Shown here one piece after another: positions 23,417 through 34,870 of a DNA stretch of 34,870 nucleotides. Origin of the DNA: a virus; IMG/VR virus record IMGVR_UViG_3300035666_000095, positions 1-34,870 of that record; one strand, written 5' to 3'. Below the pieces are notes generated by a model, which saw only the letters and a program-made list of their open reading frames with translations, had not been told where the DNA came from and made no database searches. Numbering within the stretch: the first letter of the stretch is position 1; every line of letters starts with the position of its first letter. Both the position numbers and the translations under genes were made by a program.

Positions 23417-23806
23417 TTATGCGGCGTGTAACTTGTTTTGATTAGCGGAACGCAATTCATTTGCAAAGTGCCGTGTATCGCCTTCAATACCATGAATTAC
23501 AAAACCACCGTAAGAAGTGTCGCTATACAAAATAACTGCGACAACCGAGTCTTTTCTGGTTTCAACATAACCGGGGGCGGGTTCATCTTGAAAAACCCGG
23601 TAGTTTGTAGGAACCCAACCGGGGCGGGTAATTTTAATCCACTCGATGGAAGCGTTAAAACGGCCTTTGTACTTACCACGTTTTTTAACCGGCAAAGCGT
23701 CAACAATTGCATCGCCAAATTTTTTGCGAGCATATTGTTCGCCAAACTCTCCACCAACCCAAGCGATTTTGCGTTCAAAAACTGCGTGTTGTTGAAATTT
23801 GCCCAT
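23417..23806 (-). CDS. First gene of minus operon, unknown function
   Basis: A 129-residue protein, basic and aromatic, MGKFQQHAVFERKIAWVGGE followed by FGEQYARKKFGDAIVDALPV. The second half is beta-rich (DSVVAVILYSDTSYGGFVIH). No signal peptide, no metal site and no known motif. Being promoter-proximal in the early minus operon it may take over host functions, but this is only inference. SD GGAG within CGGAGAGAATAAATG. Confidence 0.6.
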   Translation of the reverse strand: MGKFQQHAVFERKIAWVGGEFGEQYARKKFGDAIVDALPVKKRGKYKGRFNASIEWIKITRPGWVPTNYRVFQDEPAPGYVETRKDSVVAVILYSDTSYGGFVIHGIEGDTRHFANELRSANQNKLHAA

Positions 23807-23847
23807 TTATTCTCTCCGGTTAGTACGATCAAAGTGACCGTAGGAGA

Positions 23848-23875
23848 ATAGTAAACTGTTTACTGCCCATGTCAA
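23848..23875 (-). promoter_or_regulatory. Early promoter of the minus operon with overlapping operator
   Basis: Read on the minus strand: -35 TTGACA (23875-23870), a 16-base spacer, -10 TACTAT (23853-23848). The 15-base palindrome AGTAAAC-T-GTTTACT (plus strand 23850-23864) covers the -10 and part of the spacer, the classic place for a repressor. The first start codon lies about 40 bases downstream. Confidence 0.75.
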
Positions 23876-23894
23876 CACCTTTTATCAATTATTT

Positions 23895-23922
23895 TTAATT
23901 CCCCTACAATTTGTGGGGTTAA
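23895..23922. other. Dyad symmetry between the divergent promoters
   Basis: TTAA (23895-23898) and TTAA (23919-23922) flank CCCC-T-ACA-ATT-TGT-GGGG (23901-23918), a stem of 4 plus 3 pairs with one bulged T. It sits between the minus-operon promoter and the promoter of the putative RNA. It may be a protein-binding site or a weak terminator against read-through in either direction. Confidence 0.4.
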
Positions 23923-23928
23923 TCTATC

Positions 23929-23956
23929 TTGGACGTTATTGGAAACCGTATACAAT
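23929..23956 (+). promoter_or_regulatory. Promoter of the putative non-coding RNA
   Basis: -35 TTGGAC (23929-23934), a 16-base spacer, -10 TACAAT (23951-23956). Transcription would begin near 23962-23964. No reading frame of useful length with an SD starts in the next 380 bases, which points to a non-coding product. Confidence 0.6.
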
Positions 23957-23962
23957 TTAGTG

Positions 23963-24280
23963 GTCGGAAGTGACGCTCCGGTGTTTGGCAGAGACCTAGT
24001 ACCCAGAACCCTTTAGTGGGGGCTTGTAGTCATCGTTTGGTCTCCGCCCGATGCTGGCCTGTCAAGCCCAAGTCTCCACTAAAGGGTTTTTCCATTTCCG
24101 ACTGCGCGAAACGCCAGCAAATGGAAAAGGCGGGGATGGGATAGAGGCCGTGGAATAAGTAGCCACGGAGCCGGGGTCGACACCCGCTATATCCGTTCAG
24201 AAGTGGGCACGGCTACCTGATAGAGCGTTGTTACGCAATACATCTCCGTGTAAGGCTGGCAAAAACCTGTTTTTGCTAGT
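23963..24280 (+). ncRNA. Putative structured RNA of about 320 nt between divergent operons
   Basis: This is the only gap of more than 300 bases in the genome. Stems I can read directly: AACCCTTTAGTGG (24007-24019) with CCACTAAAGGGTT (24076-24088), 13 perfect pairs; nested GGGCTTG (24020-24026) with CAAGCCC (24063-24069); nested CATCG (24031-24035) with CGATG (24049-24053); TTTTCCATTT (24088-24097) with AAATGGAAAA (24119-24128), capped by CTG-c-GCG-AAA-CGC-CAG; GGATA (24139-24143) with TATCC (24190-24194), enclosing CCGTGG/CCACGG and CGGG/CCCG hairpins; CACGG (24208-24212) with CCGTG (24246-24250), enclosing GCGT/ACGC. A closing hairpin is at 24256-24279. GAGACC (23991-23996) could form a pseudoknot with GGTCTC (24039-24044). 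I see no match to tRNA, tmRNA, RNase P, 6S or group I intron cores. It could instead be a leader of the 24353 gene or a replication origin. Confidence 0.55.
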
Positions 24281-24292
24281 TGGTCGTTCTTT
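24256..24292 (+). terminator. Closing hairpin of the putative RNA, likely terminator
   Basis: CTGGCAAAAA (24256-24265) and TTTTTGCTAG (24270-24279) form a 10-bp stem with one G-U pair around the loop CCTG. The following TTGGTCGTTCTTT is only moderately T-rich, so termination may be partial. Confidence 0.5.
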
Positions 24293-24305
24293 GGGCATTT
24301 AGGGA

Positions 24306-24334
24306 TTGCAAACAGTTTCTAAAACAGATAATCT
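24306..24334 (+). promoter_or_regulatory. Early promoter of the plus arm
   Basis: -35 TTGCAA (24306-24311), 17 bases, -10 TAATCT (24329-24334). AAACAGTTT (24310-24318) overlaps the -35, so a protein bound there could block it. The expected start near 24341 leaves a short leader with the SD CGGAG before ATG 24353. Confidence 0.6.
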
Positions 24335-24352
24335 ACCCAAAACGGAGATTTT

Positions 24353-24559
24353 ATGAATACTGAAGATGTAGGCAATTTGATCGCCAAAGTCCCGCAGGGC
24401 TTGAGTCCTGACGAGTTCCTGATGGCTCTGGCTAACCTAGTCGAGACCACGACCCGCGAGGCTTGCGCCCGTGAGATTGAGGTTGAGGTTGCGGACTACG
24501 ACCGGGACTACCGCGAGGTAGGTCTGGAACTGGCAGCTCAAATTAAGGTGAAAAAATGA
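24353..24559 (+). CDS. Small early protein, unknown
   Basis: A 68-residue acidic helical protein, MNTEDVGNLIAKVPQGLSPD followed by EFLMALANLVETTTREACAR. The TREACAREIEVE helix resembles EREACAK/YERAECAK in the two following genes. Good SD (CGGAG, six bases before ATG). First gene of the plus arm, so probably expressed early. Function unknown. Confidence 0.65.
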   Translation: MNTEDVGNLIAKVPQGLSPDEFLMALANLVETTTREACAREIEVEVADYDRDYREVGLELAAQIKVKK

Positions 24560-24825: not shown

Positions 24826-25432
24826 CCTACGCAAAGCAGCAGAGGACTTACTAGAAGACGTTGAAGCAGCAATCAAGGCTGGTGACTGGAAGGTAGATGG
24901 GGCTTGTGACCCAGACTCAGCAATCCATGCACTCCGCACCGCACTAGCGCAGCCGGATGAAGTATTAGCAGAGCGTGAGGCGTGTGCGAAAATTTGTGAT
25001 GAGCAAGCAGAAAAAGATAAGTTTGAGGGGTGCTACGCAAACGCCTGTGCTGAAGCAATCCGAGCAAGGTCAGAAAAGCGGCCAGTCAAGTCTTACTGCG
25101 GGGGTAAGCCTAACTATTGCACACCTGAACAGGGTAACAGCAGTCCAAATTACCCCATTTCTGAATCTAGTACCCCATTTGTCGATACCGTAAACACATC
25201 GCAAGCAAGAGTAGAGTACGACCGGCAAGGAAACATTGCGCGGTTGTTTGGGCCAATAGAGCCTGACGGAACATTGCTCTACGCCGCACCACCAAAACGT
25301 GAATGGGTTGGGCTGACGGATGCTCAGGTTGAGGAGATTGCCGAGTATCACGGCATTGATTGTCTATATGAAACCTCTCGTATTGACTTCTATCGTGCCA
25401 TAGAAGTCAAACTAAAGGAGAAGAACATTTGA
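24818..25432 (+). CDS. Early protein with EREACAK helix and C-terminal helical domain, unknown
   Basis: A 204-residue protein. The N-terminal half (LRKAAEDLLEDVEAAIKAGD, then VLAEREACAKICDEQAEKDK) is a type seen in many environmental phages. The middle (SYCGGKPNYCTPEQGNSSPN) is loop-like, then VEYDRQGNIARLFGPIEPDG, and the end EWVGLTDAQVEEIAEYHGID is a second small helical domain. It looks assembled from exchangeable pieces. ATG 24818 is preferred to GTG 24812; the overlap with the previous gene is 8 bases. Function unknown. Confidence 0.65.
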   Translation: MTDLRKAAEDLLEDVEAAIKAGDWKVDGACDPDSAIHALRTALAQPDEVLAEREACAKICDEQAEKDKFEGCYANACAEAIRARSEKRPVKSYCGGKPNYCTPEQGNSSPNYPISESSTPFVDTVNTSQARVEYDRQGNIARLFGPIEPDGTLLYAAPPKREWVGLTDAQVEEIAEYHGIDCLYETSRIDFYRAIEVKLKEKNI

Positions 25433-25809
25433 CTGACTTTGAGACCTTTTGGAAGGCTTACCCTAAGAAGGTAGCCAAGGGTGACGCCAGGAAGGCTTGG
25501 AAGCAGACTGACCAGATCCGTCCAGAGTTAACCGAGCTACTAGAGGCCATAGAAGCCCAATGCCGGTCAGACCAATGGCGTAAGAACGATGGTCAGTTCA
25601 TCCCCTACCCTGCGACATGGCTACGCCAAGAGAGGTGGTCTGACGAGCTCAAGGTCACCCTGCCGGGGGTAGTTCAGGGCAAGGAGTGGCATGAGACTTG
25701 GGCAGGGATTCAGGCTAAAGGCCGAGAACTGGGCATTGATGAGAGCCAGTTCACCCACCCGCAAGACTTTAAGAGCGCGGTGATGCGCGGAACGGTCAAG
25801 GTCGCATGA
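25429..25809 (+). CDS. Replication-protein-like (C-terminal domain of O-type initiators)
   Basis: A 126-residue protein: FETFWKAYPKKVAKGDARKA, WKQTDQIRPELTELLEAIEA and GQFIPYPATWLRQERWSDEL. This segment is commonly the C-terminal part of phage replication initiators of the lambda O type, here standing alone without the origin-binding N-terminal domain. It might recruit host helicase to a nearby origin. Start is TTG 25429 with SD AAGGAG. The stop TGA overlaps the methyltransferase ATG and is followed directly by ATG 25810 of the second frame. Confidence 0.65.
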   Translation: MTDFETFWKAYPKKVAKGDARKAWKQTDQIRPELTELLEAIEAQCRSDQWRKNDGQFIPYPATWLRQERWSDELKVTLPGVVQGKEWHETWAGIQAKGRELGIDESQFTHPQDFKSAVMRGTVKVA

Positions 25810-28823: not shown

Positions 28824-29085
28824 ACCAATCCCGAAAACCACGGTAGGTAAGGGCAAGAACTACAAGCCCACCGAGCAGGGTGCGGGAATGACTGCAAAAG
28901 GAAGGGCAGCATACAATGCGAAAAATAATTCAAACCTTAAAGCTCCAGCTCCAAACCCTAAAACAAAAGCTGACGAAGGCCGTAAAAAGTCTTTTTGTGC
29001 GAGAATGAACCCTATTGCAGAAAAGAGCGAAAAGGGAAGCCGTGCAAGAGCATCAATGCGTTCATGGAAATGCCCCGGTTATTGA
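28807..29085 (+). CDS. Basic conserved phage protein (DUF6321-like)
   Basis: A 92-residue, very basic protein. MKTTNKPIPKTTVGKGKNYK with PTEQGAGMTAKGRAAYNAKN at the start and GRKKSFCARMNP with SMRSWKCPGY at the end match a small phage protein family, seen often near terminase and head genes. The function is unknown; the charge suggests a DNA or RNA partner. The gene is complete although a homing endonuclease gene follows immediately. Confidence 0.7.
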   Translation: MKTTNKPIPKTTVGKGKNYKPTEQGAGMTAKGRAAYNAKNNSNLKAPAPNPKTKADEGRKKSFCARMNPIAEKSEKGSRARASMRSWKCPGY

Positions 29086-29086
29086 A

Positions 29087-29527
29087 ATGTGGGCTGATAT
29101 TGCTGGTTACGAAGGTCGTTATCAGGTAAGCACGTTGGGCCGCGTAAAGTCTTTGGCAAGGTTTAGACAAACCAAAGGCGGTGGAAAAACTTGGATGCCT
29201 GAAAGAATCATGGCTTTAAACATTAAAAAAGAAACCGCAAGAATTAAGCCGTATGCGGAAGTTCGGTTAAGAAATGGTGGCCCAAGAACAGAAAAATGCA
29301 AATCTTTTCTAGTTCATCGACTTGTTGCCGGAACTTTTATAAAAAACTTGGAAAAAGATGAGCAAGTTGACCATAGAAACGGTCATCACAACGATAATAG
29401 AGTAGAAAATTTGAGGGTGATGCACTATGTCGAACACGGCAGAGAGCATCCGTTAATCAAAAGCGGGCAATTATTTAAAATGGGAACCGCCGCTTTAATG
29501 GCAAAAACTGGAATTGTTAATGGATGA
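29087..29527 (+). CDS. NUMOD4/HNH homing endonuclease
   Basis: A 146-residue nuclease. MWADIAGYEGRYQVSTLGRV and KSLARF are NUMOD4, a DNA-binding module. HRLVAGTFIKNLEKDEQVDH with NGHHNDNRVENLRVM is the HNH core. ATG 29087 comes one base after the previous stop; the frame is open upstream but that part is only a shadow. It is more A+T-rich than the genes on both sides. It is the second free-standing homing nuclease here, unrelated in its DNA-binding module to the one at 9593. Confidence 0.85.
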   Translation: MWADIAGYEGRYQVSTLGRVKSLARFRQTKGGGKTWMPERIMALNIKKETARIKPYAEVRLRNGGPRTEKCKSFLVHRLVAGTFIKNLEKDEQVDHRNGHHNDNRVENLRVMHYVEHGREHPLIKSGQLFKMGTAALMAKTGIVNG

Positions 29528-34620: not shown

Positions 34621-34870
34621 ATGTCTGAAGCAACACAAGAAGCCCGGAAACAGGCTTCAACAGTTGTAACGAGTGAGAATTTAGCTGAGTTTTCGTTAGC
34701 AAAATTAGGTTTAGCGTCAGATGGAACTCCCATTGAGGCCGCGCCAGCGGAGCCGGTGGTTGAGACCGAGGCGAGTGAACCAAGCGAAACCGAGGCTGCG
34801 ACAGGTGAAAAGAAGCAAAACCCAAAACTTGAGAAGCGGTTTTCAGAACTGACTAAGCAGCGTGAAGCGG
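34621..34870 (+). CDS. Scaffolding protein, 5' part (continues at position 1)
   Basis: ATG 34621 follows the SD GGAG (34611-34614) at good distance. The first residues are MSEATQEARKQASTVVTSEN and LAEFSLAKLGLASDG, then Glu/Pro-rich sequence; 41 codons lie before the repeat at 34744, and the frame continues at position 1 of the window. Joined length 305 residues. See the 1-795 entry for the role. Confidence 0.85.
   Translation, partial: MSEATQEARKQASTVVTSENLAEFSLAKLGLASDGTPIEAAPAEPVVETEASEPSETEAATGEKKQNPKLEKRFSELTKQREA
34744..34870. repeat. Terminal direct repeat, right copy
   Basis: Identical to bases 1-127. When the circle is closed this copy should be removed, leaving 34,743 bp. Confidence 0.95.

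Follow-up and report, generated by a model that had tools for sequence, protein, structure and literature searches.

Genomic context of the RNA locus

The window (the whole stretch of 34,870 nt analysed here) is an IMG/VR record of a freshwater bacterial virus, a tailed-phage genome of ~34.7 kb that looks complete because it carries an exact 127-bp direct terminal repeat (1-127 and 34744-34870). Portal, coat and terminase genes are present, and comparison of terminases places uncultured Manatee Spring phages nearest among the named relatives (72%). The RNA locus occupies a non-coding gap between two divergent operons. The leftward operon includes a YqaJ exonuclease gene and, judged by sequence, probably codes for an annealing protein as well, and the rightward operon encodes a replication-initiation-like protein (25429-25809) and a DNA methyltransferase. 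A NUMOD4/HNH homing-type endonuclease is also found within the rightward operon (29015-29527). As a preliminary description of this DNA had stated, the gap contains no credible frame (no ORF of ≥60 aa lies inside it), and the promoter, stems, bulge, junctions and closing hairpin listed there are all present on the + strand (Table 1). A tRNA search of the window returned none.

Searches with the terminase and with the genes at 24556 and 25429 gathered ~200 IMG/VR loci, many of which contain the same non-coding gap. Once these relatives were aligned, the left part of the gap and its right part, here termed RNA1 and RNA2, proved to be inherited separately. RNA1 faces the replication genes, and in most relatives the locus stands at the head of the replication-gene side, with a replication-initiator-like gene ≤2.8 kb downstream in 71 of 98 RNA1 copies, many of the copies without it ending early; other replication-type genes stand behind some copies, such as a primase-like ORF recognized by eye in L275. 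This position ahead of replication genes in most lineages would suit a replication primer or origin RNA resembling ColE1 RNA II or lambda oop. Such a role is highly improbable, since the RNA1 terminator described below would stop a primer and the second modules are replaced wholesale, with an HNH gene in their place in L005; nor does the skew change at ~23.5 kb favor a primer, as the switch in gene strand accounts for it. A packaging RNA, raised in the preliminary description, gained no support.

DNA similarity searches against named phages and plasmids gave no related region; with standard blastn, the region matched named phages only in short AT-rich stretches attributable to chance. MW202674 and MW202520, the closest in terminase among named phages, contained no convincing RNA1 (E 0.12, inside a gene). 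One of them, the related uncultured phage MW202520 (L357), has an int-alpA RNA (RF02996) at 2423-2489. No RNA1 was found in 393 Burkholderiaceae genomes in a search run without a positive control, and a pattern search in genome contigs gave two matches, one real (L276) and one due to chance (L277). The former (L276 1880-2056) is a type II RNA1 (see below) that lies next to YqaJ- and Erf-like ORFs in an Akkermansiaceae MAG, within a contig of 582 kb, and belongs to either a prophage or a mis-binned piece.

Table 1. Features of the RNA locus, with positions in the window and the evidence for each.
Feature	Position	Strand	Evidence
Palindromic operator-like site GTAAACTGTTTAC at the leftward operon promoter	23851-23863	.	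sequence; conserved in relatives
Near-palindrome CCCCTACAATTTGTGGGG immediately before the RNA promoter	23901-23918	.	sequence
RNA1 promoter, TTGGAC (23929-23934), N16, TACAAT (23951-23956)	23929-23956	+	sequence
RNA1 type I, ~129 nt, pseudoknotted, terminator-ended	23963-24091	+	alignment A1, pair counts, fold z -3.4
Possible 5' hairpin P1, GUCGG (23963-23967) with CCGGU (23978-23982), alternative to P0	23963-23982	+	A1 consensus fold
RNA1 pseudoknot 5' arm, GGCAGAGACC	23987-23996	+	cognate complementarity
P2/P3/P4 hairpin	24007-24088	+	alignment pair counts (type I)
P2, perfect 13-bp stem	24007-24019/24076-24088	+	four pairs changed on both sides
P3, 7-bp stem	24020-24026/24063-24069	+	invariant
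P4	24031-24035/24049-24053	+	three pairs changed on both sides
RNA1 pseudoknot 3' arm, GGTCTCCGCC, in the P4 apical loop	24039-24048	+	cognate complementarity
Bulge AAGTCT offsetting P3	24070-24075	+	sequence
U tract (TTTTT) of the RNA1 intrinsic terminator	24087-24091	+	sequence
P0 3' strand UUCCGAC, pairing with the RNA1 5' end GUCGGAA (23963-23969)	24096-24102	+	compensatory changes
RNA2 type A, ~190-nt multi-junction RNA, 3' end inferred	24096-24290	+	alignment A2, 24 sequences
RNA2 arm	24148-24153/24163-24168	+	three both-side-changed pairs (C-G/U-A, G-C/U-A, U-A/G-C)
RNA2 pseudoknot 5' arm CACGG	24208-24212	+	three both-side-changed pairs
RNA2 pseudoknot 3' arm CCGTG	24246-24250	+	three both-side-changed pairs with the CACGG arm
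RNA2 closing hairpin, weak terminator-like	24256-24265/24270-24279	+	alignment A2 pair counts; terminator scan
TTGCAAACAGTTT in the promoter belonging to the rightward operon, -35 and operator-like site	24306-24318	+	sequence; conserved in relatives

Promoters and operator-like sites

The RNA had been given a promoter of its own in the preliminary description, and the placement of its -10 element proved to be conserved, lying 6 nt before GUC in 83 of 104 distinct upstream regions, while the TTGGAC -35 is weak (9/12 for the best-matching hexamer pair). Over the same 104 regions the best promoter match upstream of RNA1 copies averaged 8.2/12 against 6.0 in shuffles. The promoter is of the sigma70 type, and since the -10 placement is conserved, G23963 can be inferred with good reason as the +1 position. 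An automated scan for terminators and promoters flagged neither the RNA1 terminator nor the RNA1 promoter, which fall outside the loop lengths and -35 matches that it accepts.

The flanking operons have promoter-like elements of their own. On the - strand, a TTGACA-N16-TACTAT promoter overlaps the operator-like site at 23851-23863, and copies of a motif containing ACAGTTT occur in opposite orientation at this site and at 24306-24318, that is, at the promoters of both divergent operons; the shared core suggests that one regulator may serve both. The palindrome at the RNA promoter (23901-23918), probably a regulator site, differs from this ACAGTTT motif. In close relatives CCCTACAA-TGTRGGG is kept there whichever RNA1 type they carry.

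Structure and covariation of RNA1

The 13-bp stem followed by TTTTT has the architecture of an intrinsic terminator, and the region was therefore divided into two modules, RNA1 and RNA2. The U tract after the hairpin is kept in both RNA1 types described below, and RNA1 very probably terminates at ~24091. The single RNA of ~320 nt envisaged in the preliminary description was accordingly abandoned, RNA1 having its own terminator and RNA2 being exchangeable and probably made by read-through.

Two forms of RNA1 were recognized among the relatives, type I, as in the window, and type II (GUCAGC NNN GUGGCA N'N'N' GUUGGAA...), with pattern searches locating the left module in 58 and 81 viral stretches, respectively. 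Both have a promoter of their own, a +1 GUC, a pseudoknot arm, P2, an arm in the P4 loop and a terminator made up of a GC-rich hairpin and a U tract. A covariance model of type II found three type I copies end to end at the expected position, its scores being weak (E ~0.005), which suggests, without proving it, a common origin of the two types. The invariant GUGGCA loop of type II and a second loop, UGCCA, in another hairpin are complementary and likely to form a kissing contact.

In comparisons with shuffled sequences, RNA1 alone gave a fold z score of -3.4, the whole region -2.8 and RNA2 alone only -1.1. Thermodynamics alone is therefore insufficient for a claim of structured RNA, which is carried instead by covariation, judged here by shuffles, slid controls and the cognate-arm test described below, controls that do not fully remove the effect of relatedness. 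In the type I alignment (A1, 17 sequences) 97.7% of cells pair and 12 pairs are changed on both sides, against 2-6 when partners are slid. The type II alignment (A3, 46 sequences) has 26 such pairs against 6-11. Together with the RNA2 alignment given below, these are the compensatory stem changes whose absence, according to the preliminary description, would have spoken against an RNA, and they make a real structured RNA of two-module architecture practically certain. An ordinary terminator followed by intergenic filler with chance folds would fit the folding of RNA2, hardly better than that of shuffles, and is refuted by the controlled covariation and the cognate-arm test, so that its probability is close to nil.

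A hypervariable pseudoknot

The core of the RNA1 pseudoknot, already proposed in the preliminary description, is formed by GAGACC at 23991-23996 and GGTCTC at 24039-24044. Because the arms of type II vary in length and column scoring is therefore poor, preference was given to a cognate-arm test, in which the pairing of each 5' arm with its own 3' arm is compared with its pairing with the others. The duplex energies averaged -17.1 kcal/mol for own arms and -7.8 kcal/mol for other arms in type I, and -15.9 and -6.4 kcal/mol, respectively, in type II; none of 20,000 partner shuffles reached the observed sum in either type. An extended type I set (41 sequences) left the outcome unchanged (-17.5 for own against -10.3 for other arms). 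The GAGACC/GGTCTC pseudoknot is thus strongly supported as a predicted pairing.

The arms diverge 14.5-fold (type I) and 7.2-fold (type II) more than the rest of RNA1, with pairing kept. RNA1s that are identical outside the arms are only 45-87% identical within them, the lowest value being seen between L156 and L157. Matches to the arms elsewhere in their own loci, which for most phages covered only a few kb, showed no excess (253, 67 and 17 for 9-, 10- and 11-mers, against 248, 59 and 15 in shuffled sequences), and this argues against ordinary antisense targets. Divergence of this extent with pairing intact is what would be seen if RNA1 were a decoy or anti-defense RNA, whose arm sequence is recognized by a host or satellite defense while the phage needs the structure only. 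This explanation is quite unlikely: no defense partner was identified, and divergence confined to the arms is also expected if complementarity alone matters.

RNA2 and the helix across the terminator

RNA2 of the window belongs to a type (A) that was aligned from 24 sequences (A2), the number of RNA2-A copies being a lower bound. Fifty-eight pairs in ten helices are paired in 99.8% of cells, and 15 pairs are changed on both sides against 0-1 in the slid controls, including those of a pseudoknot CAYGG/CCRUG. Several conserved pairs are G-U when read on the + strand; the opposite strand would have A-C in their place, so RNA2 is assigned to the + strand. In one relative (L092) a 26-nt tandem duplication lies inside RNA2. 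No promoter-like site was found for RNA2, and it is therefore probably made by read-through past the RNA1 terminator from the RNA1 promoter.

The two modules appear to be joined by helix P0, which spans the terminator and shows compensation among individual relatives (AUCGGAA/UUCCGAU in L305, GUUGGAA/UUCCAAC in L326, GUCAUC/GAUGAC in L047) and between the RNA1 types (GUCGG/CCGAC versus GUCAGC/GCUGAC); within type II the test is weak because most copies are invariant there. L307 and L352, in which RNA2 has given way to an ORF, lack P0. This compensation, and the loss of P0 where RNA2 is missing, argue that a transcript spanning both modules matters. The minimum-energy fold of the window does not pick P0, which competes with the local 5' hairpin P1, itself a weakly supported candidate with one-sided G-U changes only. 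In both L307 and L352 the replacing ORF, of 73 aa, begins directly at the RNA1 U tract, with a Shine-Dalgarno-like AAGGGG inside the terminator arm.

These features could also belong to a cis-acting leader of the replication operon, in which RNA1 would be a regulated attenuator, or a polymerase-modifying RNA like put of HK022, gating the passage of polymerase into RNA2 and the genes that follow. RNA1 is terminator-ended and transcribed toward the replication genes, an ORF starts right at its U tract in the two relatives just described, and the P1/P0 alternatives resemble a switch. A leader is nevertheless unlikely, since a promoter-like site belonging to the rightward operon itself lies beyond RNA2, the elaborate conservation of RNA2 would be needless for an attenuator, and an RNA found at the RNA2 position in relatives stands alone in bacteria (see below); put, with ~70 nt and two stem-loops at an early promoter, is also unlike RNA1 (PMC9378689).

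Exchange of the second module and Betaproteobacteria-1 RNA

Other relatives have different RNAs at the RNA2 position, several types being swapped behind RNA1. In L005 an HNH endonuclease gene (2163-2696) occupies this position. One of the alternative RNAs is Betaproteobacteria-1 RNA (RF02932, gathering score 49.4 bits), which follows RNA1 and its terminator, in the place of RNA2, in, for example, L069, L203, L222, L303, L308 and L336. It was found behind both RNA1 types, the relatives scoring 65-91 bits.

The window itself has no match to RF02932 at the gathering score, nor at E up to 5 over 23800-24360, and its RNA2 was for this reason not assigned to Betaproteobacteria-1; the two share the place directly behind RNA1, a likeness of position that does not define a family. 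No other Rfam family was found under either threshold, the gathering score (whole window) or E up to 5 (23800-24360), so that the RNA remains without an Rfam assignment, as first described. The phage location, the ornate fold and the RF02932 copies of relatives would suit a member of a known large ornate class (GOLLD, ROOL), named for comparison in the preliminary description, or of Betaproteobacteria-1. The window matches none of these Rfam models at the same thresholds; at the level of these models such an identity is refuted, and membership is barely credible.

In Burkholderiaceae, RF02932 was above the cut-off in 13 of 294 genomes. Unlike the RNA2 of the phages, the copies inspected stand without RNA1, from which it follows that this kind of second module can stand alone. 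In Herbaspirillum (L297, 9087-9205) RF02932 adjoins genes for TnsA-like (below cut-off), Mu-transposase-C-like, TniB and TniQ proteins, and near other copies a HipA-like ORF (L283) and XRE-type regulator-like ORFs (L283, L284, L291) were noted by eye. A literature search found no open paper on Betaproteobacteria-1 RNA; the original motif paper lies outside the literature covered, and a prior description of part of the locus is possible.

Proposed function

The reading proposed as the best explanation of the whole, with a rough probability of 35%, is a two-module RNA with two products that would act in trans early in infection and carry self-recognition arms. RNA1, with a presumed start at G23963, folds into a hairpin with an interlocking pseudoknot and has a terminator architecture at ~24091; RNA2 follows and can pair back to the 5' end of RNA1 via P0. 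One promoter is likely to yield two products, RNA1 alone, short and terminated, and, in smaller amount, an RNA1-RNA2 transcript made by read-through. RNA1 would be the constant module, and RNA2 the exchangeable effector module, of an early trans-acting phage RNA. The pseudoknot arms would serve as a lock by which RNA1 pairs with itself, in one molecule or as a homodimer, and would not pair with the RNA1 of a related co-infecting phage. This self-recognition function is put forward tentatively. Such a lock would explain why the arms diverge fast and yet remain complementary; their fast divergence could equally result from escape from host defense or from relaxed constraint, with only complementarity mattering.

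In broader terms, it is possible, at odds well short of even, that the locus represents a new modular class in which a pseudoknotted, terminator-ended small RNA with a self-complementary hypervariable code for self-recognition is coupled, through read-through and P0, to exchangeable effectors that include Betaproteobacteria-1 RNA. The RNA class is absent from Rfam 15 and is present in over a hundred uncultivated viral contigs. Betaproteobacteria-1, annotated but unexplained, becomes one of the alternatives in a phage module whose partner and location are defined, and a helix that changes wholesale and remains complementary offers a natural experiment on a phage specificity code, an arms race or unusually free drift.

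Comparison with known systems

GOLLD and ROOL are likewise phage-encoded and ornate RNAs of unknown role; many GOLLD RNAs exceed 800 nt, residue numbers in ROOL go beyond 460, and the two are often found close to tRNA islands (PMC12286853). In contrast, the modules described here are far smaller (~129 and ~190 nt) and lie in a replication region of a window without tRNA genes. The put RNA of HK022 acts on downstream terminators (PMC9378689) and resembles RNA1 in being a structured RNA that starts an early phage transcription unit, whereas RNA1 is pseudoknotted, is itself terminator-ended and lacks the two-stem-loop architecture of put.

In comparison with regulatory RNAs of phages and satellites, the arms of RNA1 pair with each other and have no excess of targets in the same loci. 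Antisense RNAs of the P4, P1, P7 and N15 type also carry specificity arms. These are small phage or satellite regulatory RNAs complementary to leader sequences (PMC7567579). Other phages also make abundant non-coding transcripts, non-coding RNAs being predicted to top the transcript levels of ICP1 and its satellites (PMC7567579). The present locus adds a new class, with an unusual modular and hypervariable design, to the known kind of orphan structured phage RNAs.
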